Shown here piece by piece: positions 644-20,517 of a stretch of DNA of 20,617 nucleotides. The position numbers and the translations under genes are program-made. The stretch is from a virus. The notes under the pieces are model-generated. The model did not search any database and was not told the origin of the DNA. It saw only the letters and a list, made by a program, of their open reading frames with translations. Within the stretch, counting starts at the first letter, position 1, and each line of letters starts with the position of its first letter. The DNA lies in IMG/VR virus record IMGVR_UViG_3300042197_000630, positions 1 through 20,617 of that record. The stretch is one strand, 5' to 3'.

Positions 644-1315
644 ATGCCGCGTCGTATTCCCACTTTCTTCCCGCAACGTGTGCGTATGAATGTGCGTCGA
701 AAGGTGTACACTTCTAGCATTGAAGGTGATGACCTGATCACTGCGGAGTTTGGCGCACCACTTGCGGCAAACAACACTGCAATTCTTGCAGCACAGAGCA
801 TTTCTTCTGCGGGTAATGCAAGCCCAGGTGCGAATTATACTGCAAGTGAAGGGCAAATGGGTCGTTGGGGTCGCGGTGTTCGTGTTGTTGCATCAGGCGC
901 TTCGACTGCATTGGTTACGATTACTGGTCGTGACTATCTTGGTCAGCGTATGCAAGAGGTGCTTACGCTCAATGGTGCTACGCCTGTGCTTGGTGTCAAG
1001 GCGTTTCGTTACATTGATAACGTTGCATGGGCTGCTGGTGGTGCGGTCACACTTGATGTTGGTATCACTAACCTGATGGGCTTGCCTGAAAAGGGTAAGG
1101 CTATGGTTAATGAAATCAAGAACAGCGCTGCAAGTGCAAACGCTGGTACGTTCGTTGCGGGTCTTGCCAATGCAACGACTCCTACTGGTACGAACGCAGA
1201 TGTGCGCGGTACGTACCTGCCTGTGACTGTCATTCCTGACGGTACAAACACGTTTGAAGTTCGGTACATTGCCGATACTTCAAACCTACACGGTAATGCT
1301 CAGTTTGCTGCATAA
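644..1315 (+). CDS. Putative head decoration/structural protein (223 aa)
   Basis: The start at 644 is supported by a strong Shine-Dalgarno GGAGGG at 630-635. The N-terminus is strongly basic and Pro/Arg-rich (MPRRIPTFFPQRVRMNVRRK), and the rest is low in charge and rich in Ala, Gly, Thr and Val. About residues 78-130 look like alternating beta strands (RVVASGASTALVTITGRDYL, then VLTLNG and VTLDVG). This is typical of phage capsid-surface or cement proteins with beta-sandwich folds. Its gene is the last before an intrinsic terminator, as expected for the end of a head-gene transcription unit. I cannot assign a named family; it could also be a minor tail or head-fibre component. A virion role is inferred from composition and neighbours. 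Confidence 0.72.
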   Translation: MPRRIPTFFPQRVRMNVRRKVYTSSIEGDDLITAEFGAPLAANNTAILAAQSISSAGNASPGANYTASEGQMGRWGRGVRVVASGASTALVTITGRDYLGQRMQEVLTLNGATPVLGVKAFRYIDNVAWAAGGAVTLDVGITNLMGLPEKGKAMVNEIKNSAASANAGTFVAGLANATTPTGTNADVRGTYLPVTVIPDGTNTFEVRYIADTSNLHGNAQFAA

Positions 1316-5872: not shown

Positions 5873-6151
5873 ATGGATAACCTTAGCTTCATTAACCGCA
5901 TTGCTGAGAGCAGTCCAGCAATCATTGGCATTCTGCTTGCAGGATATGTCGCATGTTGGAATGTGTTAAAATCATTATTGCGCCGCCTAGACAAGAAGGA
6001 TGAACAGTTATTAGAGTTGAACAGTGAAATGCTCACTGCTGTAGCTGCCGTGACCAAAGCAGTAGAGCGTTTGACAGACTCCATATTGTATCGCAACACA
6101 AGTTCACTGATCAGTAACAGAGTTGTACGTAATGAAGAGGATGATTTGTGA
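5873..6151 (+). CDS. Small membrane protein, holin candidate (92 aa)
   Basis: The ATG at 5873 lies one base after the tailspike stop, with a GGAG ribosome site at about 5861-5864; an earlier in-frame start inside the spike gene is less likely. Residues about 13-35 (SSPAIIGILLAGYVACWNVL) form a single hydrophobic membrane segment. The rest is charged and looks like a coiled coil (LLRRLDKKDEQLLELNSEML, then VAAVTKAVERLTDSI). One N-terminal membrane helix plus a cytoplasmic coiled coil is the topology of BhlA/UviB-type holin-like proteins. Its position at the end of the tail genes would suit a lysis gene, but no endolysin is visible in the window. It may instead be a superinfection or membrane-anchoring protein. 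Confidence 0.72.
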   Translation: MDNLSFINRIAESSPAIIGILLAGYVACWNVLKSLLRRLDKKDEQLLELNSEMLTAVAAVTKAVERLTDSILYRNTSSLISNRVVRNEEDDL

Positions 6152-6156
6152 GAAAA

Positions 6157-6207
6157 GGGCTTGACAAGCCCGACTTTGGGGGTATAATAGCCCAAAACGG
6201 CTTGGGC
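6157..6207 (+). promoter_or_regulatory. Nested inverted repeats over the promoter and leader (operator candidate)
   Basis: Three dyads overlap the promoter. GGGCTT-GAC-AAGCCC (6157-6171) covers the -35 box. TTTGGG (6175-6180) and CCCAAA (6191-6196) flank the -10 box symmetrically with a 10-base gap. GCCCAA (6190-6195) and TTGGGC (6202-6207) form a 6-bp hairpin with a 6-base loop just ahead of the start codon. The first two could be operators for a repressor or activator. The last could mask the start region in read-through mRNA. None is followed by a T-tract, so I do not call a terminator. Function is inferred. Confidence 0.5.
6161..6188 (+). promoter_or_regulatory. Consensus sigma-70 promoter upstream of the GNAT gene
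   Basis: TTGACA at 6161-6166 and TATAAT at 6183-6188 are both perfect matches to the bacterial housekeeping consensus, with a 16-base spacer. The predicted start of transcription is about 6195, 20 bases before the GNAT start codon. It is the only promoter of this quality I found in the late block. Confidence 0.88.
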
Positions 6208-6214
6208 AGCTAGT

Positions 6215-6679
6215 ATGTCAATACGTATCCGCACTTACAAACATAGCAATGACTACTCGCGGGTGCTATTGTTGTCTGAGTTGATGTATAATGAGAGTAA
6301 ATACACGCATAAACCATTCATGCGTGAAGCAGTGTATGAGTTTTTGGAGAGAATTGATAATAACACGCTCATTGGTTACGTTGCTGAGCATAATGAGCGT
6401 GGTATTATCGGATTTATTGGCTTAACACAGATGCCATACATATTTACTGGTGGCTTCTTTGTACATGACCTGGCATTTTATGTAATGCCAGAGATGCGTC
6501 ACACATTAGCGTTCGCAGCATTGCTTCGTGCGGCTGAGGACTACGCTAAAAGTGGTGGTGCAGATGCAGTAGTGCTTGGCATTACTGCTCCACATGATGT
6601 TTCTCGCGTAGCACGTGCTTATCATAAGCGCGGTTACAAAACATTCGGTGCATTCATGCGCAAGGAGTTGACACAATGA
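6215..6679 (+). CDS. GNAT-family N-acetyltransferase (154 aa)
   Basis: The length and strand-helix order fit a single GNAT domain: an N-terminal strand and helices (residues 1-47), paired strands GYVAEH and GIIGFIGL (54-70), strand 4 FVHDLAFYVMP (82-92), the acetyl-CoA helix MRHTLAFAALLRAAEDYAK (94-112), strand 5 ADAVVLGIT, and a final helix and strand (ARAYHKRGYKTFGAFMRKEL). The family transfers acetyl groups from acetyl-CoA to amines; the substrate is unknown. The usual Q/R-x-x-G-x-G/A pyrophosphate loop is degenerate here, with R95 kept but Leu and Phe where Gly is expected. No clear Shine-Dalgarno precedes the ATG. The gene has its own strong sigma-70 promoter inside a late block, yet overlaps the next gene by ATGA. 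Confidence 0.82.
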   Translation: MSIRIRTYKHSNDYSRVLLLSELMYNESKYTHKPFMREAVYEFLERIDNNTLIGYVAEHNERGIIGFIGLTQMPYIFTGGFFVHDLAFYVMPEMRHTLAFAALLRAAEDYAKSGGADAVVLGITAPHDVSRVARAYHKRGYKTFGAFMRKELTQ

Positions 6680-7602
6680 GTTTTGGCGGCGGATATAAAC
6701 CACCCCCTGATAATTCCGTGCAGTTGCAACGTGAGCAATTTGCACGTGAAGATACAAACCGCGCTGCTGAGCGACAACGGCAAGAGGAAGATGCTGCTAG
6801 GCGTCGTGGCGAGTTCACAACGGCACGTGATACCGCTATTGGCGATTATCGTGATCGTTCAGCACAGCGCTTGACCGAACGCGGTCTTGATCCTACACAG
6901 TATAACTTCCTGATTGAGAACGCAATCAGAAGTGGCCGTAATGCGCTGCCTGATCTGGATACTAATCCATCGCAATACTTCACTGATGCATTACTAGACA
7001 ATGCTATCAATCGCACACAGGCTGATCGTCGTGCAAGCTACACTACGCAGGCTAATCGTGCGTTTGCTGATAACTTCGAGCGCGGATTGTTTCAAGATAC
7101 TGCTGATGATCAATTCATTAACGCAATTCTTGGCAATCAGCGCGGTGAAGCGGTTCGCTCGCTAGACATGGCACGTAGTCGTGGCAGTCTTGACCAAGTT
7201 GGGTATGATGCTGCAATGGCACGACTTGGTGAAATGGAACAAGCAGGCCGTAGCACCGCTAATAACCTTGGTAGCGCGGTCATTCAAGGCTATCGCAATC
7301 GTACACGTGATATTGGTAATCGTGCAAGAGAAGCTGCCGGTAACTATGAGTTGGGTGGTGATTTCAATCTTGGTGGTTACACTACAGAGTTGTCTGATCT
7401 AACTGGTACACTGCGTAATTCACTGGAAGGTGACATTAGCAGCGCACTAGCTGGCCAACAATTCTTTGATCTTGGCGACATACTAACACGTGGTGGTAGT
7501 GCGCAAGGTCCGACTAATCCTGCATCATTACCTGGCTTTATAGCCGAACGTGAACGTGTTCGCAATGCTGAACGCGGCGTTGGTGGTGGTGGAACATTCT
7601 AA
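6676..7602 (+). CDS. Putative internal virion protein (308 aa)
   Basis: The ATG overlaps the GNAT stop (ATGA) and has AAGGAG at 6662-6667. After a short Gly/Pro start (MSFGGGYKPPPDNSV) the protein is almost wholly hydrophilic and helical, with many Arg, Glu, Gln and Asp residues (for example QREQFAREDTNRAAERQRQE at about 18-37) and a Gly-rich tail (GVGGGGTF). There is no membrane segment, enzyme motif or signal peptide. This composition, and its place first in a row of similar genes after the tail genes, match podovirus internal core or ejection proteins that are released into the cell envelope at infection. Individual function is not recognisable; assignment rests on composition and context. 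Confidence 0.68.
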   Translation: MSFGGGYKPPPDNSVQLQREQFAREDTNRAAERQRQEEDAARRRGEFTTARDTAIGDYRDRSAQRLTERGLDPTQYNFLIENAIRSGRNALPDLDTNPSQYFTDALLDNAINRTQADRRASYTTQANRAFADNFERGLFQDTADDQFINAILGNQRGEAVRSLDMARSRGSLDQVGYDAAMARLGEMEQAGRSTANNLGSAVIQGYRNRTRDIGNRAREAAGNYELGGDFNLGGYTTELSDLTGTLRNSLEGDISSALAGQQFFDLGDILTRGGSAQGPTNPASLPGFIAERERVRNAERGVGGGGTF

Positions 7603-7614
7603 TAGGAGTGTGAC

Positions 7615-8628
7615 ATGGACCCCTTTACCATAGCAACGCTAGCATCTGCCGCATTAAGCGCGGCAGGTGTTGGCATGGGTGCGATGCAAGGTGCGCAAGC
7701 ACAGCAAGCAGCTAATGCACAGAATGATCTTGCATTGCGGCAATTCTATGCTAATCGCCGCATCGCACAGCAACAAGAAGAAATGGCTCGTGCAGGAACA
7801 CGTAATGCACGTGGTGATGTAACCGAATATGTGCCTGGTGTTGGGTGGGTAGAACGCCCAAGTGCTACAACACAAGGCATGATTGCTGCATCTGATCAAG
7901 AACAACGCTTACGCCTTGCACAAGATTTGCCACGTGCGCGTATGTTGCGTGAAGATAACTTTGGCAGGCAATTAAGAGAGGGTGCAGCGGCTGATGCAAT
8001 ACTTTCTGGCATCAATACCGGATCACAAAGTGTAGAAGATTTGCGGGGAGCATTGATCCGTGCAGGAACAGCTAGAGCTTCTAGTGGTGCTGACGATATG
8101 CGTAAGCGTATTGGTCTTGTATCACTTCGCAGTGGCAGTGGTGGAGAGCAAGCACTTGCTCAATTAGGCCGCAACCGCATAGCAGATACACGCACTGCAA
8201 TCGCTGAGGCTGATCTTGAAGCACCTAGTGAATATGTAGGTCGGCGTGGTGCGCGTACTAATTCACGCTTAAATCAGTATGGTGCGCTTGCTGCACGTGC
8301 ATCAGCACCAGAAGGTACACCATTCACACCTACTGTACTTGATGAACGTCTATCTGATGTACTGCGTAGCCGTGCTAACATGGCACCGCAGGCATTGGGT
8401 AATGCTATGAGCCTTGATGGACCACGTGTTCAACATGCAGAGGACCGTACACCTGTTGGTCTTGATAGCATTGGTCAATACCTGCAAGGACTTACGCGCA
8501 TGGCTGAGCGTGAAGGTTTGCGTAATCGTGGCACATACAACAACAATCCTTCATCGCTATCATTCAGCAATGTCAATCGCCCTGTGTCATACAACGAAGC
8601 ATGGGCATCTAATAACTACATGATGTGA
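7615..8628 (+). CDS. Putative internal virion protein with hydrophobic N-terminus (337 aa)
   Basis: Start at 7615 has TAGGAG at 7603-7608. Residues about 3-27 (FTIATLASAALSAAGVGMGA) are an Ala/Gly-rich hydrophobic helix without a cleavage site typical of secreted proteins. Next comes a long Ala/Gln helix (GAQAQQAANAQNDLALRQFY). This arrangement is common in the smaller ejection proteins of podoviruses (T7 gp14-type in role), where the N-terminal helix is thought to insert into the host envelope to form a channel. The rest is hydrophilic with Arg-rich helices. It follows a similar gene by 12 bases and precedes another by 10, in one transcription unit. The role is inferred; sequence homology to gp14 is not evident by eye. 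Confidence 0.68.
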   Translation: MDPFTIATLASAALSAAGVGMGAMQGAQAQQAANAQNDLALRQFYANRRIAQQQEEMARAGTRNARGDVTEYVPGVGWVERPSATTQGMIAASDQEQRLRLAQDLPRARMLREDNFGRQLREGAAADAILSGINTGSQSVEDLRGALIRAGTARASSGADDMRKRIGLVSLRSGSGGEQALAQLGRNRIADTRTAIAEADLEAPSEYVGRRGARTNSRLNQYGALAARASAPEGTPFTPTVLDERLSDVLRSRANMAPQALGNAMSLDGPRVQHAEDRTPVGLDSIGQYLQGLTRMAEREGLRNRGTYNNNPSSLSFSNVNRPVSYNEAWASNNYMM

Positions 8629-8638
8629 GGCTTAGACA

Positions 8639-9571
8639 ATGGCACGATACAGTCTGACAGTAGTTAGGCCGACACGCATTGGTCGTGTAAGTGCGCCCGG
8701 TGCAGACGAATTGCGCAGTGCAATGGCTGGTGAACAAGCAATGACGCAGGCTATGCTACAGCCTGGGGCTAGTCAAGTCATAGGCCACCGCTTTCTTGCA
8801 GAACAGAAGGCGGCAGATGCCAAGCGTGATTACACACTAGCGACTGAGCAGCATAATCAAACACTATCTGACATGCGTGAAGAGGATCGTCGTCGTGCGT
8901 TAGAGGATCAGGCAACACGTAATCGTCATGCATTGTTGACTGCGGGCATTAACAATCCTGCTGGCATGTCGGCAATGACTGCGCCAGAATTAGAAGGCTT
9001 GCTTGATCCTGGTGCGCGTGATTTGTATCGTAGCTTGTTGCGTGAGAGTGTAGCTGCGACAGGTCGCAGGTATTCATTGCGTCCAGAAGGTAGCAGTGAT
9101 GTTAGCCCAAATGTACAAGCAAACATTGATCAGCGCAATGCTGCGCTAATTGAGCGTTCTATCAACGCTGCTAGAGCTGATTTAACACGTCGAGAGGCTG
9201 CTATCATGGCAGATGCTACTCGTCGTTTGCAAACTGAGTTTAATCAAGCACGGCGACAAGCAATCACTCAAGAGCGCGATGTAGCTATTGCCGCTGCTAG
9301 GCAGCGTGCTAATGATTTGATTGCTGGTCTTGAAGCGCAGCGTCGTGGTGGCCGGGGTAATGCTGCACCTGCAACACCACAAGGCAATACACAACAAGCA
9401 GCACCGTCTAATAATGAAACAGTTGCACCGCTAGAAACACCTGATCCACGTGCGGCAATGATTGAGTCAGCACGTAGGCATCTGGCTAATCCTAGCACTA
9501 CACCACAACAGCGTGAAGCTATTCGTCAACGCTTGCAACAGAATGGCATTAACCCGGATACAATGCAATGA
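8639..9571 (+). CDS. Putative internal virion protein, coiled-coil rich (310 aa)
   Basis: The ATG at 8639 follows GTGAGG. Residues about 55-100 (HRFLAEQKAADAKRDYTLAT, then RRRALEDQATRNRH) and about 160-240 (LTRREAAIMADATRRLQTEF, then ERDVAIAAARQRANDLIAGL) are long charged helices likely to form coiled coils. A Pro/Gln/Thr-rich linker (about 243-275) leads to a short C-terminal helix. There is no membrane segment or catalytic motif. The gene ends by sharing ATGA with the 1334-aa gene, suggesting translational coupling and similar copy control. By context it is an internal core protein, perhaps the middle member of a three-part ejection complex; nothing in the sequence proves this. Confidence 0.68.
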   Translation: MARYSLTVVRPTRIGRVSAPGADELRSAMAGEQAMTQAMLQPGASQVIGHRFLAEQKAADAKRDYTLATEQHNQTLSDMREEDRRRALEDQATRNRHALLTAGINNPAGMSAMTAPELEGLLDPGARDLYRSLLRESVAATGRRYSLRPEGSSDVSPNVQANIDQRNAALIERSINAARADLTRREAAIMADATRRLQTEFNQARRQAITQERDVAIAAARQRANDLIAGLEAQRRGGRGNAAPATPQGNTQQAAPSNNETVAPLETPDPRAAMIESARRHLANPSTTPQQREAIRQRLQQNGINPDTMQ

Positions 9572-12500
9572 GTGGCAGTGATCCCTTTGCTGATATTGTA
9601 TCAGCACCGCAACAGAACGATCCATTTGCTGACATTGTGCAGCCTAGGCGTCGTGTAACTAGCGGTGGGATCATTGGTAACATTCCTGGCATGAGCATTG
9701 CAATGGATGTTGCGCGCGGCTTCACTGGTGCAGTGCCTGACATTGCTGGTCTTGCAGGCTATCTAAGCGGTAGTGAGGGGCTAACTGATTGGAGCAAGCG
9801 CGCGAATACATTCCTTGATCAAAACATAGCACAACGTGCTGAGTTTAAGGATGATCCAGTACGTGCATTTATACAAACTGCTGGCCCTGCATTGATACCG
9901 CTTGGCGGTCCTGTAGCTAGTACTGCAAGCACAGCTAATCGCATCGTTCGTATGCTGCCAACAAGATTACAGCAAACTCCTGGTGTGGCTGGTACGATTG
10001 GCGGTGTTGTTCGTGCTGGTGAAATTGCATTGCCCGGTTCTGCACCATACACTGCGGGTAACATTGCGTTGAATGCTGGTGCTGGTGCAGCATTGTCATA
10101 CGGTGCTGAGCAGCTTGGTGATGCGGCAGAAGAAGCAAGACTTGCGCGCATCAATCCACCACGTACTACGTCTGTAGTAGCGCCAGAACCCCCTGCTGAT
10201 CCATTCAATGACATTGTACCGCCTGGGCAAAAGTCATGGTATGAGACTGCACAAGATGTGTTGCCATGGGTAGTTGGTGGATTGGCTATTGCCAGTGTTG
10301 GCGCAGCTATGCGCTTTCAAAGCCGTTTTGCGCAGAAGCAGCTTGATGCTGCCAATCCAACAGCGCTAACACAGCCCGGTACGCCAGATGCTATGCAGCC
10401 TATGACTGGTGTGATTGAAGGCATTGAAAATGGATTGTTCAATCAGTACACTGTATTGAACAACCGCATTGATGAACGTGTTCGTGAAGGTGTCATTACT
10501 CGACAAGAGGGTGATAGCATCATGGGTACGGTGATCACACACGCCAATGAAGCTGTCAATAGCGATGTGCTGCGCGAAGTGTGGGACACTGGCTTATTCC
10601 CTGGGGGTACTAAGACAATCCCACCTAGTGAAGTCGCATATCGTGCATCACTGCTTCGTGGTCAAAATGTTGATCCGCGTACAAGCCGTGACGACTTCAC
10701 ACGCTTTAACGATATGCTCGCTGCGATGGATGAATTAGACTTGCGTAAGTCTAATCTCGATAATACTAAGACTGTGCGTGATCCTGTCACTGGTCATTAC
10801 AAGCAAGTGTCTGACCCTATATGGCGCACTGATCCGTTGACTGGTAAGCAAGTTAAAGGTGAACCTCGTAGGTCTGCATTGTCTGACATAGATGATGCGA
10901 CACTTAAACAGCGTGTGGCAGAAGGAATGCAGTCACCGCAAGTAGTAAAGATTGTTGATGAATACCGCCAGATTAACAATGCATTGCTAGATTATGGACA
11001 TAAGATGGGCATATGGTCAACAAAAGAAGTTGCTGACATGCGCGCTAAGAACCCTAACTACATGCATCGTATGATTGCTGATCTGGTATTAGAACGCAAT
11101 CAGCGCGCCGGGCTTAGCCCTATTGTGTCTGCAATGGAAGGTAACTCACCACTTACTAATCGTAATCGTGCGGAGAATGCTGGACCTGATCGCTATCAAG
11201 ATGCCATGATGAACATGCAGGATGGCATTGGACAGACGCTAGACTTCATTCGCCGTAATGAAGCATTGAAGAGTGTTGCAAACAATCTATCTAGCACATT
11301 TCCTAATAGCGCTGCAAAGCCTGTAAGCGGTATTGGGCGTGTGCTTGTTGATCGTCCTGGTGTGCAACCAAATAAAGGCTACATACCTGTGCCTTTTCGT
11401 GATCATAATGGAACACGATATATACTTGAATTGGATCCCACAATAAGCCAAGGCTTGTTGCCATACCCGCGCGCATTCGTGCCTATCGCTAATGGTGCGC
11501 GTATGCTAGAGCAGAAGTTGACAACCGGGCCTATAGGCTTTCTGCTTGGTAACTTACAGGCTCCCGCATCTATGGCAATGGGTGCCGTTGCTGCGCTTAT
11601 CAATGCGCCGCCACATCTGCGCATTGGCATTCTTGACAAGTGGATACAGAATAGCACAGGCATTAGCCCGCGCAAGTTTGGCATTGTTGATCCAACATTC
11701 TTTGCGCAGGTACTGTCAGCACCATTGCGTGATCTGTGGGATTTACGTGGTCAAGTGCTTGGTAATGCATTGCAGCGTTCACTAGACAAGAACGGCTTCA
11801 TTGCTAATCAGCTTGGTCCTGTTCGTGCGCAAGCTATGGCTGACGCATTTAAGCGCAGCTATGAAGCAAGTGATCTGCATCGTATGAAGAGTGAGGGGTT
11901 GATTGCGCAAGGTTTATCCTATGCCATGGAAGGGCAGGGATTGACGGGCTTTGCTGCGCAGATGCGCAATCTTGCGCAGAATAATCCTGAATATGCGAAG
12001 GTGATGAATTACGGTGGATTTGCTCCTGATATAACTAAGGTACGTTCGCTAGAACAGTTTCGTGAATATGCCGCTGTAAAAGGTGCGCGTATAACGCCGA
12101 TTACTATGCGCAAGATATGGCAGGGGTATTCTAAGTTTCTTGATCTAGTAGCTAACGCACCACAAAGCGCTATTTATCGTGCAAACAAAGGCCGCAATGA
12201 TCGTGGTACTATTGGCTTTGCACGATCTGTGACGGGTGATCCATCACAATATGGTAATTACCGCATTGTGCAAGGTGTGCTATCTATGGTTCCATATGGT
12301 AACATCATGGTGCAGGGTGCGCACCAACCTGTCAAGGCTTTCAAGCGTGAACCTGCGGCATTTGCGGTGCGCACTGCTATGTTTGCTACTATGGCTACTA
12401 CTGCAATGCTGCAATCTGCTGTAGATGCAGATGAACGTGCGATTGCAGAAGGCAAGCCACCTAAATCTGTGGCACATTTGCTAACACGTGATAGCCGTGA

Positions 12501-13572
12501 TGCTGCTGGTGCGTTTCGTTTCTATTGGAACAGTGATGATCCTGAAAGCAGCATTCGTGTACCCATTGAACAGTCATTCGCACCGTTCTTTAGCGCTGTA
12601 TTGGGGTCAATTCAAGCTGGTTTTGATGTAGATAACCCTGATTTCTTCACAGAACGCTATGCACCGCTGCGTGATAGCCTGCATAGGCTCATTGAGGATG
12701 GGAATGATCAGCGTATGCGCGCGTCATTTGGCTTAGCGGGTGCTGATATACCGATGCTTGGCGCAGTTGATGCAGCTTCACGCATGATTACTGGCAGCAC
12801 AGTAGAGGATGCTATGTCATTTGCTACTGGTCCACGTATTGCACCTGATCGCAGCACTAAATCGCTTGATCGTCTAATGATGAATAACGATGTAAGCGAT
12901 AGATACACTGCAACAGTGTTGCAGACTGCACTAGGCTATGGGGGCGAAGCATTGCTGGACCTATGGCGCACGTTTGGTATTGTGCAACGTACTGAGGGGA
13001 CTGCGGCTGCTGCAAAAGCAACGCTTGGGCAGTACGGTGCGAACATTACTGGTGGTGCGCGTATCGTAGGTCCAGCAATGTTCGGCCAAGAACGCAGAAT
13101 GCGCAGTAATGACGTTGTTGGTGAAACAATCCTAGCTATGGAGCAGAAGTTAGACACTATCACACGCAATCTAGGGCAGATACGTGGTGGTGAAGGCACG
13201 ATTGGCCCATCTACACGCTTGCGTGAACCGGAGTTTGGTGGTGGACGTGCTGGTGTTCCAGAAGATATGCAGCCAGTGTTGCTACAGCTTGCGCAATTCA
13301 ATTCACAGATTAGTAAGATACAGCAACAACGCAAGGATAAGCTAGAAGAATTGCGCACATTGAATAGTTCGCCAATTCTTCGTGCTAATCCTGGCGAGTT
13401 GCGCACCAAGACTAATCAGGTAGCGCAAGAAGTGCGTGAGATAAACGCACAGATATACCAAGCTATGTTGAGTGTTGAAGCTGATCTATCTGATGATACA
13501 GGGCGGCGTGTGCGCATTGCTGACATTGATCCGATGAAGGGCCTTGATCAGTTTCCGCGCATACATCGCTAA
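9568..13572 (+). CDS. Giant internal virion / DNA ejection protein (1334 aa)
   Basis: The largest protein in the window and the last of the late block, in the place of the large ejection proteins of podoviruses (T7 gp16-type in role). No lysozyme or transglycosylase motif is visible at the N-terminus. Instead it begins with a repeated short motif DPFADIV (residues 5-11 and 18-24), with DPFNDIV at 211-217. Hydrophobic segments lie at about 231-248 (VLPWVVGGLAIASVGAAM), 652-680 (PIGFLLGNLQAPASMAMGAV) and 933-952 (AVRTAMFATMATTAMLQSAV). The rest is helical. The segment YRQINNALLDYGHKMGIWST (about 467-486), followed by KNPNYMHRMI, resembles helical regions of large polyvalent phage proteins. The C-terminus (1240-1268) is a coiled coil. 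Its stop overlaps the stop of the opposing operon. Confidence 0.78.
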   Translation: MSGSDPFADIVSAPQQNDPFADIVQPRRRVTSGGIIGNIPGMSIAMDVARGFTGAVPDIAGLAGYLSGSEGLTDWSKRANTFLDQNIAQRAEFKDDPVRAFIQTAGPALIPLGGPVASTASTANRIVRMLPTRLQQTPGVAGTIGGVVRAGEIALPGSAPYTAGNIALNAGAGAALSYGAEQLGDAAEEARLARINPPRTTSVVAPEPPADPFNDIVPPGQKSWYETAQDVLPWVVGGLAIASVGAAMRFQSRFAQKQLDAANPTALTQPGTPDAMQPMTGVIEGIENGLFNQYTVLNNRIDERVREGVITRQEGDSIMGTVITHANEAVNSDVLREVWDTGLFPGGTKTIPPSEVAYRASLLRGQNVDPRTSRDDFTRFNDMLAAMDELDLRKSNLDNTKTVRDPVTGHYKQVSDPIWRTDPLTGKQVKGEPRRSALSDIDDATLKQRVAEGMQSPQVVKIVDEYRQINNALLDYGHKMGIWSTKEVADMRAKNPNYMHRMIADLVLERNQRAGLSPIVSAMEGNSPLTNRNRAENAGPDRYQDAMMNMQDGIGQTLDFIRRNEALKSVANNLSSTFPNSAAKPVSGIGRVLVDRPGVQPNKGYIPVPFRDHNGTRYILELDPTISQGLLPYPRAFVPIANGARMLEQKLTTGPIGFLLGNLQAPASMAMGAVAALINAPPHLRIGILDKWIQNSTGISPRKFGIVDPTFFAQVLSAPLRDLWDLRGQVLGNALQRSLDKNGFIANQLGPVRAQAMADAFKRSYEASDLHRMKSEGLIAQGLSYAMEGQGLTGFAAQMRNLAQNNPEYAKVMNYGGFAPDITKVRSLEQFREYAAVKGARITPITMRKIWQGYSKFLDLVANAPQSAIYRANKGRNDRGTIGFARSVTGDPSQYGNYRIVQGVLSMVPYGNIMVQGAHQPVKAFKREPAAFAVRTAMFATMATTAMLQSAVDADERAIAEGKPPKSVAHLLTRDSRDAAGAFRFYWNSDDPESSIRVPIEQSFAPFFSAVLGSIQAGFDVDNPDFFTERYAPLRDSLHRLIEDGNDQRMRASFGLAGADIPMLGAVDAASRMITGSTVEDAMSFATGPRIAPDRSTKSLDRLMMNNDVSDRYTATVLQTALGYGGEALLDLWRTFGIVQRTEGTAAAAKATLGQYGANITGGARIVGPAMFGQERRMRSNDVVGETILAMEQKLDTITRNLGQIRGGEGTIGPSTRLREPEFGGGRAGVPEDMQPVLLQLAQFNSQISKIQQQRKDKLEELRTLNSSPILRANPGELRTKTNQVAQEVREINAQIYQAMLSVEADLSDDTGRRVRIADIDPMKGLDQFPRIHR

Positions 13573-14816
13573 ACATCAGTTAGCTTCTCAAGCATCAGTG
13601 AGTTAAGATTGCGCGCTAGTATTCGGTTAGTAGCGCGCCACACTGTTTTGCGCCTGCCCTGTGTTGCTACGTCAAAGCGCTGCACCATTTCCATTTCATG
13701 CATGATAGCTAATGCGTACTCCAATTCACGTGTCTTTAAGTGTCTGCGTGTTTTGAATAGTACTTCGCTTTGACCAATGCCCAATTCACCAGCTTCTAGC
13801 AACACAGTACGCAGCTTGTCTATGCCATTCGTCATGCGCATGGCTTCTTTGTTTGCACCGAATAAATCTGCTGCTGCTGCTTTATTATGCTGAATGATCT
13901 TAATCGCATGATTGATGTGGTGTGCATCAATCATCCAGCTTTCATCATTAGCACTGAGCAATGCTGCTAGGCGCAGTATGTGATGATCCTCTCTAGCTTC
14001 AAACGATGCAATGAATGGATCATTCGCATCGCCATCGCGTCGTTGCTCATACCACCGCACGAACCTAGCTTTAGCGTTCTCAGTTAGATTGATCCCACGC
14101 TTGGACCAATTCTCTGCTTGTGTACGCAGTGAGCGTAGTTGTTCCGCTAATGCATCAACATTGTTGTCCTGTTCCTCTGGCCATGCTACAAGTCTCTTGC
14201 GCTTCTCTTCAATGATGAAGAGACAACGGCTAGTAAAGCCACCTTCGATTACATCAGGATTGATTGCGCGCACTAACCAGCTAGGTGTGGATGCTGCTGC
14301 AAAGGTGAGATACACGTTGCGAACGCTTGTCTTATCAGTTGACATACGGCTGTATTCACGCAATTCAGGACAGTCATACAGGTCTGTCAGCATACCTGGC
14401 ATTGCGATGGCATACTGCTCTTTGCCCAGGAATGTGACTAACTCACTGACAAGTATTGCACATGATGCAGCATCGTGTGTCTGTGTATGCAGTGCTAACT
14501 GTTCACGCAGCTTCTCTGGTGTGATGTTTCCAGTCACTGTAACGATATCATTGTGAAATCCTGCCGCACGAAATACACGTTCGCACATGCGGATAGCAGT
14601 TGACTTGCGTGTGGTTCCTGCTTCTGCACACAGTACAACATACAAGTTCAGGAACACAGGCGCATTAGGCCGCCGCACAATCATGCGACGGCCAATAGCG
14701 TTGCTGATTAACCACATTCCACACCAGAAGTCATATCCTACTGGTGTTTCTAATGGACTCATGTACTGCAAATACTTGTCCAGAAACGTACCCTCTTTTA
14801 CGGCTTCACGATACAT
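13569..14816 (-). CDS. DUF3987-like replicative P-loop ATPase (415 aa)
   Basis: Start placed at the ATG at 14816, with GGAG at 14826-14829; an in-frame GTG at 14840 lacks a ribosome site. Residues 58-74 (LYVVLCAEAGTTRKSTA) are a P-loop in which the usual Gly before Lys is Arg (GTTRKST, residues 67-73). A hydrophobic strand ending in acid (AILVSELVTFL, 120-130) would be Walker B, and GGFTSRCLFII (192-202) fits an arginine-finger segment. This set is typical of DUF3987-type phage proteins, thought to act as helicase or helicase-primase-associated ATPases in replication. The C-terminal 80 residues (IGQSEVLFKTRRHLKTRELE and after) look like a winged-helix DNA-binding domain. It is the last gene of the replication operon. 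Confidence 0.72.
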   Translation of the reverse strand: MYREAVKEGTFLDKYLQYMSPLETPVGYDFWCGMWLISNAIGRRMIVRRPNAPVFLNLYVVLCAEAGTTRKSTAIRMCERVFRAAGFHNDIVTVTGNITPEKLREQLALHTQTHDAASCAILVSELVTFLGKEQYAIAMPGMLTDLYDCPELREYSRMSTDKTSVRNVYLTFAAASTPSWLVRAINPDVIEGGFTSRCLFIIEEKRKRLVAWPEEQDNNVDALAEQLRSLRTQAENWSKRGINLTENAKARFVRWYEQRRDGDANDPFIASFEAREDHHILRLAALLSANDESWMIDAHHINHAIKIIQHNKAAAADLFGANKEAMRMTNGIDKLRTVLLEAGELGIGQSEVLFKTRRHLKTRELEYALAIMHEMEMVQRFDVATQGRRKTVWRATNRILARNLNSLMLEKLTDV

Positions 14817-15055
14817 TTTGTTTGTCTCCGCCGATTGCACAAACTGTGTGCTAGTTGCAGATTGTTGAACCTGTTTGTGCCACCTAATGCTACGGGTATG
14901 ATGTGATCTATGTGTGCATCCTCATACTCCATAGCACTGCCACATAGTGCGCAGTCACCGCCTTGTGCCGCATATAGCTTTGCTTTAATGCCTCTGCGTT
15001 CACTAGCTTTGATGTAGCGTGTACCTTGTTTGCTGCTTGGCGATCTCTTAGGCAT
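14798..15055 (-). CDS. HNH endonuclease (85 aa)
   Basis: A compact HNH domain fills most of the protein: CALC zinc knuckle (C35, C38), the beta-alpha-metal core H48-I-D50-H51 with P54 and GG58-59, N61, then NNLQLAHSLCN (64-74) containing H70 and C73. This is the McrA/5-methylcytosine-type HNH layout. A basic N-terminus (MPKRSPSSKQGTRYIKASER) may bind DNA. HNH proteins cut DNA using one divalent metal; in phages they act as homing endonucleases or in genome packaging. Its ATG overlaps the polymerase C-terminal gene's stop by 8 bases, and its end overlaps the next gene. Sitting beside a split polymerase gene it may be a homing enzyme, but that is inference. Confidence 0.87.
   Translation of the reverse strand: MPKRSPSSKQGTRYIKASERRGIKAKLYAAQGGDCALCGSAMEYEDAHIDHIIPVALGGTNRFNNLQLAHSLCNRRRQTKCIVKP
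14826..14829 (-). promoter_or_regulatory. Ribosome site that decides the DUF3987-like start
   Basis: GGAG, nine bases before the ATG at 14816. It lies inside the HNH coding region, so ATPase translation begins 19 bases before the HNH stop. The upstream in-frame GTG at 14840 has no purine-rich site. Confidence 0.6.
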
Positions 15056-15881
15056 CGAATTTCAGCTTCTTCATGTTAGACCAGCGATGCATACCTTGTT
15101 CATCCGCATAGCTGACTTTGAAATCTGCGGGGATGATCAATGGTTCACCGTGGATGATCAATGGACTCTCGGCGTACTTGCGCATAATCTTCGCTACGCG
15201 TTGCACATCACGCTCTCTGCACAATGCAGTGAGACTGTCATGGTTATTAAACGGTATTCTTGCATAGCGCGGCCATTGATCATCCTCTTGTGCTTTGTAT
15301 TGTACACTGCATACGAAGTCACCTAGTGTTGACTGCGGCTTGAATGCAATGATGCTGTCGAGCAAGTCCTCGTCAATACGACTACCTGGAAACTCCATGC
15401 GCCTTCCTAGGCATGTCCACAATTCACGATGCTTGTACACTTCATCAATGATCACCTTCCACCATATCTTTAGTTCTGGTGTTGCACGATGGTAAGCGGC
15501 ATAGGCAAGTTCAGCATCCTTAATGGACAAGCCAGTGGTCGCCGCAAGTCTAGCAGCTTGCATTCGGTAGTTAAGCCCATGTCTGCATCGCTTACTAATG
15601 GCTCTAAGACTAAGGCTGCCGACAGGGTGTTCGGGTGTTGCGTTGGTGCTATCGTAATAGTCAAACTTAGGGACACTATCATATGGCACCTTGAACATTT
15701 CACTGGCAAGTGCGATGTGAGCATCGTATGATCCTGGGTTGAGTCTTGCACGTTCGAATTGATCCTTCCATTTGATGATCTTCGCTTCCCATCCTACGAT
15801 GCGCGCTTCTGCTTGTGCGCCATCGAAGTACACATAGACTAAGCTTTCTTCTCTGGACCGTTTAATTGCGGGAGTTGCCAT
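15048..15881 (-). CDS. DNA polymerase I, C-terminal catalytic half (277 aa)
   Basis: The start at 15881 (MATPAIKR) is chosen because AGAGG lies seven bases upstream; the frame stays open further upstream only as a shadow of the preceding gene. The protein carries the rest of a family A polymerase: motif A YVYFDGAQAEARIVG with D20, Q23, E25 and R27; motif B R93-x3-K97-x7-Y105; the LWTCLGRRMEFPG turn (155-166); QSTLGDFV (183-190), which matches the QGxAAD block; and motif C HDS (214-216), where the usual Glu is Ser but the catalytic Asp is kept. It lacks everything before motif A, which is in the 560-aa gene upstream. The two products presumably bind each other to form one enzyme that copies phage DNA. 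Confidence 0.9.
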   Translation of the reverse strand: MATPAIKRSREESLVYVYFDGAQAEARIVGWEAKIIKWKDQFERARLNPGSYDAHIALASEMFKVPYDSVPKFDYYDSTNATPEHPVGSLSLRAISKRCRHGLNYRMQAARLAATTGLSIKDAELAYAAYHRATPELKIWWKVIIDEVYKHRELWTCLGRRMEFPGSRIDEDLLDSIIAFKPQSTLGDFVCSVQYKAQEDDQWPRYARIPFNNHDSLTALCRERDVQRVAKIMRKYAESPLIIHGEPLIIPADFKVSYADEQGMHRWSNMKKLKFDA

Positions 15882-16135
15882 GCTTCTACCTCTTTTTCCT
15901 CTACTGGTGGTGGTTCTTTGGGATGCTGTATTTCTACACCAAACATAAACAATCGTTGCGTTGGCTCGTATCGCCCCACACGCATAGCAGTCATGTTGAT
16001 GTACTGCGCTAAGATGCGCCACGAACGCCAATCCACCATGATTGCGTTTAGTTGCACATCTAATGCCGCTGCATCATCTTTCATCCTGCTCACAAGCTGC
16101 ACAAACTTCTCTGGATTAGACAGTGCAAACCTCAT
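15839..16135 (-). CDS. Unknown protein between the polymerase halves (98 aa)
   Basis: I do not recognise this family. The ATG overlaps the upstream stop (ATGA, 16132-16135), implying translational coupling. Residues about 1-60 are helical and amphipathic (MRFALSNPEKFVQLVSRMKD, then VDWRSWRILAQYINM). A short strand FMFGVEIQHP follows, and the C-terminal 28 residues are Pro/Glu/Lys-rich (KEPPPVEEKEVEAW) and probably disordered. The tail overlaps the start of the polymerase C-terminal half in another frame. There is no nuclease, zinc or P-loop motif, and no membrane segment. Its place suggests a small replication accessory factor or a bridging subunit of the split polymerase, but there is no direct evidence. 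Confidence 0.72.
   Translation of the reverse strand: MRFALSNPEKFVQLVSRMKDDAAALDVQLNAIMVDWRSWRILAQYINMTAMRVGRYEPTQRLFMFGVEIQHPKEPPPVEEKEVEAWQLPQLNGPEKKA
15889..15893 (-). promoter_or_regulatory. Ribosome site that decides the polymerase C-half start
   Basis: AGAGG, seven bases before the ATG at 15881 on the - strand. It lies within the 98-aa gene, whose end overlaps the polymerase half by 43 bases. It shows that the C-terminal half has its own translation start. Confidence 0.65.
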
Positions 16136-16347
16136 GGCAAGCCCTTTGCATACTCAATCATTTCTTCATACGTCATGCCTTTATACGCTGCCGACTTCTC
16201 CATGTACGCGATCATGCGTTCCTCTGCTAAATCGCGTGACTTGCTACGTGCTTTGATCTTCACCCATTCAGTGTGTATATCTAAGCCACGCTCACTAGCC
16301 GTTGTGTATGGTGTGAGAGGAATGATATGTGTTTTCTGTCTGATCAT
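16132..16347 (-). CDS. Unknown small protein between the polymerase halves (71 aa)
   Basis: I do not recognise this family. It starts and ends with four-base ATGA overlaps with its neighbours (16344-16347 and 16132-16135), so it is very probably translated in series with them. The N-terminal 25 residues are neutral to basic (MIRQKTHIIPLTPYTTASER). The middle is Lys/Arg-rich (VKIKARSKSRDLAEER), and the end is an acidic helix (YKGMTYEEMIEYAKGLP). It is too small for a homing endonuclease and has no Cys/His cluster. A role in the replication complex is inferred from position alone. Confidence 0.68.
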   Translation of the reverse strand: MIRQKTHIIPLTPYTTASERGLDIHTEWVKIKARSKSRDLAEERMIAYMEKSAAYKGMTYEEMIEYAKGLP

Positions 16348-16679
16348 TTGATCGCTCCATACTTCTTTATCAAGATTTGATTGAGGAAAGCCGTCACGGC
16401 ATCAAAATCTTCTTGGCCTGACATTATCTTTCGCCACAATACAGGGTCTTTCTTTGCATAATTTACAAGCTTGTGCATGACTTTAGCAGCCCCTGTTAAT
16501 TGCAGCATTGTCGGTATCTTTATTGAGGACGGTAAGCCGTAGTCATCAGCAGCAATGACTGTATCTGGATGATCATTATCACGCATTGCTTTTGATAACT
16601 CGTACACTTCTTGCCACATCGCACGTGCAGCACCCTCTGCTTCGTGCGCTAGACGTTCTAGCTTTTCAATGTCAATCAT
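16344..16679 (-). CDS. Unknown helical protein after the polymerase N-terminal half (111 aa)
   Basis: I do not recognise this family. Its ATG overlaps the stop of the polymerase N-terminal gene by eight bases, and its stop overlaps the next start (ATGA). The protein is predicted almost all helical: IEKLERLAHEAEGAARAMWQ at residues 4-23, continuing through EVYELSKAMRDND, then TMLQLTGAAKVMHKLVNYAK, and a final helix FDAVTAFLNQILIKKYG. It lacks enzyme motifs, cysteines and membrane segments. A helical scaffold or accessory subunit of the polymerase would fit, but this is inference from location. Confidence 0.72.
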   Translation of the reverse strand: MIDIEKLERLAHEAEGAARAMWQEVYELSKAMRDNDHPDTVIAADDYGLPSSIKIPTMLQLTGAAKVMHKLVNYAKKDPVLWRKIMSGQEDFDAVTAFLNQILIKKYGAIK

Positions 16680-18354
16680 CGAACATCATCCTATCTGCTA
16701 TGAACATGCCTCGCAGCATTTCAGGTTGGTTTTGAAGGTTCATACCGCTGCCCCACAGTGTCTGACTACTAGACAAACGGCCAGGGACATACTGTGTTCC
16801 AAACTGTTTGTAATCACTGCGCATACGACCGTCTGCATCAATATCCGCTGTGATGTACGTGCTATACAGTTTGTGCTGTTCCTTGTATCTATTGAGTAGG
16901 ATCAGCATACGCCTAGCTGCATCGCTAGTACGCGGGTTCTCGATCATTGCTAGACGATTAGCTTCGTCTGTGCTTGCTGTCTTGCCTGTAAGTCTTAGCT
17001 GCTCAAAGAACAGCTTACCAAGTTGTTGCGACGAGTTTGGATTTGGATTGATAGTATCATCATCAACAGCCTCACGTGCTGCTGCAACAAACTCTGCACT
17101 TAGTTTGTCAACACTCGTACCAAACTCCATTTCTAGCTGCTGACGCATTGCAGCGTCAACACGATTACCTAGTACGGTAGCCGCAATCAGGTGTGGCTGC
17201 AATCGCATGACATGATCACGATAAAACTTCCACAGCTTCTGCGACTCTAACTCTTTCTCGATGCGTCGTGCGACTTCCCAAGTAATGCAAACATCCTTGA
17301 CGTTGTACTCCCAGAAGCTTGCAATGTTACCCCCTTCTTTCCATTCACTCTTCTCATTCTTATAGTAGGGGTGTGTTGTGTACTGCCCAGTGAGAAAGCC
17401 AAGATTGTGTGGCCATGTGGGATGCAGCGTGTGATGTGCAAGTAGCGTGTCAATCCACAACGGCTTTGCCTTGATACGATCTTTATACCAAAGCCACGCG
17501 CAGTCAAATCCCCCGTTTTGCGCCACAAGTTGTACACTTGCATAACGAAGCACACGCTGGATCGCACGTCTAACAGTTGCTTCATCAACCACCGACCAAC
17601 GATTATTTGACAAGCCCCGAAAGTTGATGCACATGCCCTCATTAGCGTTGTTTGCAAAGCCGATGCACGCTGTCTCATTAGCGATTACCTCTACGTCAAA
17701 CGATACTGGTTTGCCTTCTTGTATCATACGATCACACCATTGCACTGCTTCACGTGGTGAGGGATCATAGATAGGCGTGATGTTATGTTCACGCCACACA
17801 CCCCGTCGAACCATGTCTAACTTGCTAATGTCAAGCCTAAAGATTGGTTCTAGTGAAGGCTTACGCATGATGTTTGCAGGATTGTGTGCAATGATAAAGT
17901 CACGTTCTCCATCACCAACCACACTACCGCGCCATTGATCAATACCGGACTGCCCAACAATCGCTTGCAATGCAATGTCTCCAAGCACAAGTATGTGCTT
18001 GAGGTTGGGTAGTTGTGACAATTCCCATTGGAGCAGTGCATTCCAGTGTGATAATTCGCCACGTGATATTCCTTTCTTATCTCCACCTTTGGTATCTACT
18101 AGCTGACGCTTCACTACGTTAGTGATGTAAAAGTGTTGGCGATGCAAGCCAAAGCCTTTCATCACGTCCCATAGGAACCTACCTGATCCACCTACTAACG
18201 GCACTTTTAGTTGTGTTTCCCTAAACCCAGGTGCTTCACAAACAATAGCAATGCTACTGCCAAAGTTACCGTCAGCAAGGCAATCCGTAGTAAGCTGTGC
18301 AGCCTGCGCTTTGCGAATAAACTCACGGTTCAATTCTCCTACAGACTCAACCAT
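16672..18354 (-). CDS. UDG-exonuclease-DNA polymerase I, N-terminal half (560 aa)
   Basis: Residues 35-170 resemble family 4 uracil-DNA glycosylases: CEAPGFRE (39-46), VPLVGGSGRFLW (51-62), YITNVVK with N79, and AHNPAN (156-161) in place of the HPA/HPS block. Residues about 212-370 are a DnaQ-like 3'-5' proofreading exonuclease with Exo I D220-x-E222, Exo II N280-x3-D284 and Exo III Y350-x3-D354. Residues about 385-560 begin a family A polymerase: thumb helices, then GTQYVPGRLSSSQTLW (519-534), MNLQNQP (538-544) and LRGMFIAD (547-554). The gene stops six residues later, just before motif A, which lies in a separate gene 790 bases downstream. The start at 18354 has AGGAG at 18366-18370 and overlaps the kinase gene by 16 bases. 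UDG-polymerase fusions are known in SPO1-like phages. Confidence 0.9.
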   Translation of the reverse strand: MVESVGELNREFIRKAQAAQLTTDCLADGNFGSSIAIVCEAPGFRETQLKVPLVGGSGRFLWDVMKGFGLHRQHFYITNVVKRQLVDTKGGDKKGISRGELSHWNALLQWELSQLPNLKHILVLGDIALQAIVGQSGIDQWRGSVVGDGERDFIIAHNPANIMRKPSLEPIFRLDISKLDMVRRGVWREHNITPIYDPSPREAVQWCDRMIQEGKPVSFDVEVIANETACIGFANNANEGMCINFRGLSNNRWSVVDEATVRRAIQRVLRYASVQLVAQNGGFDCAWLWYKDRIKAKPLWIDTLLAHHTLHPTWPHNLGFLTGQYTTHPYYKNEKSEWKEGGNIASFWEYNVKDVCITWEVARRIEKELESQKLWKFYRDHVMRLQPHLIAATVLGNRVDAAMRQQLEMEFGTSVDKLSAEFVAAAREAVDDDTINPNPNSSQQLGKLFFEQLRLTGKTASTDEANRLAMIENPRTSDAARRMLILLNRYKEQHKLYSTYITADIDADGRMRSDYKQFGTQYVPGRLSSSQTLWGSGMNLQNQPEMLRGMFIADRMMFDD

Positions 18355-20256: not shown

Positions 20257-20517
20257 TTACGGCGTTACTTGTGGATGAATGCCTGTGTTTTCTTTATGCA
20301 ATGCTGCTGCGCCAAATACGCAAAGCCATCGCATTAACTCGCCACGTGTAATGCCTAGCCTTTCTGCTTCGACATTCAGCAGCGCTAAATCTTCTTCATG
20401 CATACGCACTGCAACGCATCTACCACTGCTATTTAGTGATGCAATGCCTCTACGAAATGATAGCTTGATTGGTTTTGGTATTGTGATTGAACCAAGACCG
20501 GATACGTTTTCACTCAT
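20257..20517 (-). CDS. Ribbon-helix-helix-like DNA-binding protein (86 aa)
   Basis: Residues about 32-75 have the MetJ/Arc-type pattern: a basic strand GRCVAVRM, then helix EEDLALLNVEAERLG, a turn I-T-R-G, and helix ELMRWLCVFGAAALHK. The N-terminal 30 residues (SITIPKPIKLSFRRG) are basic and may be a flexible arm. RHH proteins dimerise and insert the strand into the major groove, most often as repressors. As first gene of the replication operon it may regulate its own transcription; a near-perfect inverted repeat lies just upstream. AAAGG lies eight bases before the ATG. Length is usual for such phage regulators, but the strand residues alone do not prove DNA binding. Confidence 0.7.
   Translation of the reverse strand: MSENVSGLGSITIPKPIKLSFRRGIASLNSSGRCVAVRMHEEDLALLNVEAERLGITRGELMRWLCVFGAAALHKENTGIHPQVTP

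Follow-up and report, generated by a model that had tools for sequence, protein, structure and literature searches.

A close parallel in layout to the locus described here is found in phages T7 and T3 (NC_001604, AJ318471), where the promoter phi13 directly precedes gene 13, the first of the genes for the internal proteins, and where a small gene is followed by the large internal protein genes (13-16). It is the phage's own polymerase that uses phi13, and in T7 the tail fibre gene comes after the internal block. Among phages in which a GNAT-family acetyltransferase gene is found in the corresponding position, roseophage SIO1 carries one of the same family as that seen here (phrog_1249), in the slot between the tail genes and the internal virion proteins, and the authors of the cobavirus study proposed that GNAT genes of the SIO1 type could correspond to T7 gp13 (PMC6775973). 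The closest named homologue of the present GNAT (31% identity) is that of Roseobacter phage CRP-810 (OR671924; PMC11288001), which occupies the same slot, past the tail fibre and ahead of the internal proteins. A small phage GNAT beside structural genes is also known from LUZ19 and the other phiKMV-type phages, namely Rac, through which the alpha subunit of the host RNA polymerase comes to be cleaved (PMC7552054); in these phages strong sigma-70 promoters are used early.

The present locus comes from an IMG/VR record of 20,617 nucleotides, the whole of which is referred to below as the window. As in T7 and T3, a small gene is followed by large internal protein genes and a promoter lies directly in front, but this promoter fits the consensus for host sigma-70 whereas phi13 is a promoter for the phage enzyme, and the tail fibre or spike gene lies before the block instead of after it. 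The parallel to phi13 is a close one as regards layout, with the host polymerase apparently replacing that of the phage. Since no sequence relation could be found between the window GNAT and T7 gp13 (there was no match to phrog_308 (PF11090), and homology by sequence was rejected on an hhalign probability of 0.7%), the correspondence between the two is positional. Unlike the window GNAT, those of SIO1 and CRP-810 have no comparable promoter, the former overlapping its upstream gene and the latter starting 2 nt past the fibre gene.

The promoter sequence

The promoter, TTGACA-N16-TATAAT, lies on the + strand at 6161-6188, within a 63-nt gap between the end of a small ORF (6151) and the start of the GNAT gene (6215). 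Its -35 hexamer TTGACA (6161-6166) is contained in a block GGCTTGACAAG (6158-6168), its -10 hexamer TATAAT (6183-6188) follows after a 16-nt spacer without a TGn extension, and the predicted transcription start is an A at 6194-6196, placed 6-8 nt past the -10 box by the position rule alone. A perfect sigma-70 promoter had been reported at this point in the preliminary description, and direct reading confirms it: both hexamers agree with the housekeeping consensus throughout (12/12), the spacing falls within the usual 16-18 nt, and there is no other 12/12 match on either strand of the 20.6-kb record, as compared with 0.0225 perfect matches with 16-18 nt spacers expected per shuffled window. Weaker sigma-70 matches in the window number 26, fewer than in shuffles.

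When the form GGCTTGACAAG-N14-TATAAT was scanned for across the whole collection it was found in 71 stretches, mostly from unrelated phages, so that we probably have here a strong promoter in general use and not a marker of this phage group. At the DNA level only chance matches to the window were obtained from INPHARED, and Rfam and tRNA scans found nothing.

The GNAT gene and the genes around it

The small ORF upstream of the promoter (5873-6151, + strand, 92 aa) has a hydrophobic N-terminal segment and is holin-like by appearance only, with no family match. The first gene past the promoter (6215-6679, + strand) encodes a GNAT-family acetyltransferase, recognised by its profile match to phrog_1249 (E=2.6e-19) and to PF00583 (37.6 bits, cut-off 20.7); the best matches of its predicted structure (pLDDT 79.5) are GNAT structures, and the fold can be regarded as fairly confident. 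No clear Shine-Dalgarno sequence was seen at this gene in the window. It is followed on the + strand by a gene for a 308-aa protein (6676-7602), which occupies an internal virion protein slot and is gp14-like by position only, and then by three ORFs at 7615-8628, 8639-9571 and 9568-13572 (337, 310 and 1334 aa), taken from their position and size to be internal virion (ejection) proteins. None of these four proteins gave a family match; the order and sizes within the block follow those of the T7 internal virion protein block. Because the GNAT stop overlaps the start of the next ORF (ATGA, 6676-6679) and no terminator-like site was found on the + strand between 5871 and 7615, a transcript from 6195 should continue into the following four proteins.

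Morons are cassettes of promoter, gene and terminator found in the structural regions of phages, and the preliminary description had applied this label to the GNAT gene. The likeness extends to a host-type promoter, belonging to the gene itself, inside a structural block, but goes little further, and the label is not supported, given the missing terminator, the overlap with the next gene, which leaves GNAT not separate from its neighbours, and a slot that is common to related phages, CRP-810 and SIO1 among them. Every close relative whose sequence extends to the slot has the gene, as do the more distant L122, L130, L131 and L132; ahead of the homologue of the next protein in L133 no GNAT was found. 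Neither GNAT nor the tail protein had a relative among the bacterial genome contigs.

The only moron-like trait found is that the distances between lineages are discordant for this gene. Amino acid identity of GNAT is flat among the four lineages described in the next section (81-86%), while for the lineage L007 the neighbouring genes range from 44 to 82%; it is in those genes, and not in GNAT, that L007 is an outlier. Identity at fourfold sites, in each case for GNAT versus its neighbours, is 0.71 vs 0.49 between the L004 and L007 lineages (p=0.002), 0.64 vs 0.47 between L003 and L007 (p=0.017) and 0.64 vs 0.50 between the window and L007 (p=0.06), which hints that GNAT may have been exchanged between lineages, or may be under stronger constraint. 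The gene for a 223-aa protein elsewhere in the window (644-1315) similarly shows lineage distances discordant with those of other genes, as might be produced by recombination or by strong constraint.

Conservation of the promoter

IMG/VR relatives having GNAT at the same place comprise four independent lineages, namely the window, L003, L004-L006 and L007 (L002, a near-identical record, was not counted as independent). In an alignment of the four, all of the 12 hexamer columns are invariant, compared with 3 of the 16 in the spacer (Fisher p=1.5e-5); the block GGCTTGACAAG and TATAAT are likewise invariant and lie exactly 14 nt apart in every lineage, while the nucleotides between them have diverged. 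A more distant example, L130, was reached by searching with the protein encoded after GNAT (A6), of which it has a 33% identical homologue, and forms part of a 40-kb genome (G008, IMGVR_UViG_3300049049_000041, which also includes L141-L143). In the same slot, about 60 nt upstream of GNAT, it carries GCTTGACAAGTTAGGAATGTACGGTAAAAT, which can be written as CTTGACAAG-N14-TAAAAT or as GCTTGACAAG-N14-TAAAAT, and which agrees with the consensus at 11/12 positions with the same spacing as in the window. This is the top-scoring + strand promoter in the whole of that genome, and similarly in the 44.7-kb genome G002 it is the GNAT promoter that has the best + strand score (16.4, the next being 12.9).

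Given that the hexamers and their spacing are kept while the spacer has diverged, and given also the L130 promoter, a functional promoter is strongly supported, and that it is both real and conserved seems to us very probable indeed; it is on the hexamers and their spacing that selection appears to act. It is, however, a trait of the lineage and not a requirement of the GNAT gene, since no comparable promoter was found in the distant relatives that have GNAT in the slot (L122, L131, L132, CRP-810 and SIO1). In L122 (8580-8830), where the tail protein is 45% identical, the sequence in front of GNAT contains no sigma-70 consensus but a hairpin, together with the inverted repeat GCATATATACCAT/ATGGTATATATGC.

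Palindromes around the promoter

The preliminary description had also noted dyads at the -35 and -10 boxes, and both are present in the window, though the second has one mismatched pair. The first, GGGCTTG-A-CAAGCCC (6157-6171), has 7-bp arms and is centred on the -35 box, while the other, GGGGTATAATAGCCC (6179-6193), lies around the -10 box; a third dyad that was not named there, GCCCAA-N6-TTGGGC (6190-6207), spans the predicted start. Three perfect dyads with 6-bp arms per 65 nt compare with an expectation of 0.13, the same number being reached by 0.5% of shuffles and by 0.7% of real 65-mers, and the counts for the same 65 nt across the four lineages are 3, 3, 2 and 1. In reading these figures it must be remembered that the -35 dyad comes partly free with the promoter, since TTGACAA is in itself TTG-A-CAA, and that the -10 dyad comes partly free with TATAATA.

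The dyads have fared quite differently from the hexamers they surround. The outer right arm of the -35 dyad, CCC in the window, has become TTA, TGC or TCC in the other lineages, and the dyad is unique to the window lineage. That around the -10 box is perfect, as GGGCTATAATAGCCC, in L003 and in L004-L006, and is lost in L007 and in L130 with its genome G008, while the third, in the leader, survives in L003 and in weaker form in L004, but has disappeared from L007 and L130. In L007 its place is taken by another palindrome, CGGCCTAGGCCG, directly after the -10 box, and it is true of each close lineage that some palindrome, of changing sequence, is found there, which is the one finding around the window promoter that lends an operator or a hairpin some probability. 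The search for the same dyads elsewhere that had been suggested in the preliminary description gave no close recurrence in any of the four genomes, the mismatched matches being at chance level. One further palindrome, ATACGTAT (6220-6227, in GNAT codons 3-5), falls within a run of six codons that are nucleotide-identical in the four lineages, and may be considered a weak operator candidate; it resembles, with three mismatches, the core of the dispersed palindrome of G008 described below. Overall, the palindromes around the promoter are best regarded as additions peculiar to the clade (a hairpin in the RNA or an operator, limited to close relatives, or else chance) and not as a conserved switch.

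Polymerase usage and interpretation

A search that does detect the RNA polymerase of T7 found no T7-type RNA polymerase in the genomes G002, G003 and G006, and none was found in SIO1 either. From its absence in G002 it is probable that host RNA polymerase transcribes these phages, while the fact that every genome of the group is either a fragment or of uncertain completeness means that there may be an unrelated or multisubunit phage RNA polymerase in this group. In the early arm of G002 and G006 all six of the promoters found with the same kind of pattern have a 17-nt spacer and a TGn extended -10 box; early-arm promoters of this kind are located at 8464-8492 and 9143-9171 in L091, 42827 and 42214 in G002, and 25803 and 21886 in G006. 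These early-arm promoters share TTGACA, and often begin TTGACATAGC or TTGACATAAG. The GNAT promoter has neither the 17-nt spacer nor the TGn, but has a spacer of 16 nt and begins CTTGACAAG, and by these features it constitutes a separate class within these genomes.

The explanation that we favour, and hold to be reasonably probable, is that the element acts as an operon promoter through which host RNA polymerase serves GNAT and the ejection-protein genes. It would then be a true promoter, internal to the late block and used by the housekeeping (sigma-70) enzyme of the host, from which a transcript would start near 6195 and read GNAT, followed by the overlapping and subsequent ejection protein genes as far as 13572, giving the ejection block transcription of its own on top of read-through from the late genes upstream. 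Because it matches the host consensus, such a promoter could in principle fire without the late programme, and might, as the preliminary description had it, be used as soon as the DNA has entered, the promoters of the early arm being however of another class. What began as a consensus match thus becomes a conserved promoter, the likely target of which is corrected from a lone moron to the head of the ejection block, and the question of why podoviruses place a separate promoter before their ejection genes becomes testable in phages without a polymerase of their own. A more far-reaching proposal would be that the head of the ejection operon has its own, independently regulated host promoter, working to another schedule than the late genes, and that in G008 this promoter is gated by a palindrome-binding regulator; were this true, which we think rather unlikely, GNAT (and perhaps also the ejection proteins) would be made on a schedule different from that of the remaining late genes.

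Several other explanations need to be weighed against an operon promoter. The preliminary description envisaged a switch, in which a phage or host repressor would bind the dyads and occlude RNA polymerase, so that GNAT would be expressed apart from the late programme. Such an arrangement would account for three dyad placements in 65 nt where 0.13 are expected, for the replacement palindrome right after the -10 box of L007, and for the situation in G008, where the promoter of the same slot is flanked on its two sides by CCAATACGTGTTGG and CCAACACGTATTGG, each an exact copy of a 14-bp palindrome that is dispersed through the genome. The difficulty is that the dyads are not kept together with the promoter (the arms at the -35 box are lost although the hexamer is kept, and neither L007 nor L130 has the -10 or the leader dyad), while no dyad has a second copy at another promoter or anywhere else in the genomes, and the G008 palindrome is represented at the window promoter only by a site with three mismatches; the repressor switch for GNAT is left unsupported and, though it should be kept in mind, unlikely. 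Alternatively the palindromes might act as RNA, forming hairpins in the read-through late mRNA that undergo processing or that stabilise the 5' end, much as an annotated T3 stem-loop (the RNase III site R13) overlaps phi13 before gene 13. In three lineages the fold of the segment is a little more stable than that of shuffled sequences (z -1.7, -1.6 and -3.1), but no structure above chance is seen in L007 (z 0.0) or L130 (z 0.4), and the accessibility of the start region is about equal in read-through and promoter-initiated RNA, making this quite unlikely. A translational switch like that of T4 gene e, in which the start would be concealed in read-through RNA and freed in RNA made from the promoter, was also considered, and was rejected as giving no consistent difference (mean accessibility in the window 0.52 vs 0.48).

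It could also be that GNAT is an early enzyme of host takeover, like Rac. There is precedent for a phage GNAT in such a role (PMC7552054), a promoter of host consensus could fire upon DNA entry, and the L007 GNAT is, as seen above, more conserved than its neighbours. However, Rac of LUZ19 belongs to another family, phrog_3986, to which the window GNAT gave no match, and reaches phrog_1249 only at E=5e-4; its gene sits before that of the portal and not before ejection genes, and its alignment with the window GNAT shows 13% identity. The six early-arm promoters are moreover of a different class, and the host polymerase seems to be required by these phages at every stage, so that an early takeover enzyme must be judged improbable. 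Finally, a consensus match alone is no proof of function, and with 26 weaker matches in the window it might be suggested that this one fell in the gap by chance and has no promoter function; against this stands the conservation of hexamers and spacing where the spacer has diverged, and again in L130, which makes chance a very remote prospect.

Dispersed palindromes and other observations

The palindrome that flanks the G008 promoter is of interest apart from the present locus. This 14-bp sequence, CCAAYAYRTRTTGG, occurs in the 40-kb genome as 10 exact copies (0.0 expected) and as 24 copies when up to two mismatches are allowed (1.3 expected), and in many cases the copy continues outwards as TAT/TAG and ATA/CTA; examples are at 220, 4240, 5335, 5834, 7180, 7382, 7975, 13566, 22399 and 22533. 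The family looks like a genome-wide set of operator or stoperator-like sites, and it offers a separate lead on a genome-wide regulator; apart from G008 itself, no close relative of that genome was found in IMG/VR. The window has a single site with three mismatches to this palindrome, at the GNAT start (6217-6230, a region that includes ATACGTAT), and no relation between the two is claimed. A dispersed operator was also sought in the window's own group, where G002 has 31 palindromes within two mismatches of GCATTGCAATGC against 8 expected (e.g. at 44409, 44447, 42905 and 35113), two exact copies lying near the right end; it was rejected, as many of these words fall within genes and the promoter itself has none.

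Two further features of the window may be recorded. Its DNA polymerase is split between two ORFs on the - strand, at 16672-18354 and 15048-16031 (phrog_17 positions 539-1003 and 1009-1237); the two parts are separated by small ORFs and are followed by an HNH endonuclease ORF (14798-15055); the region (15048-18354) has no Rfam match, and in L090 there are likewise two separate - strand ORFs of similar size lying apart. A small protein encoded at 20257-20517, also on the - strand, matches the ribbon-helix-helix family PF01402 below the threshold (17.8 bits, cut-off 20.5), and is probably the RHH protein to which the preliminary description referred.
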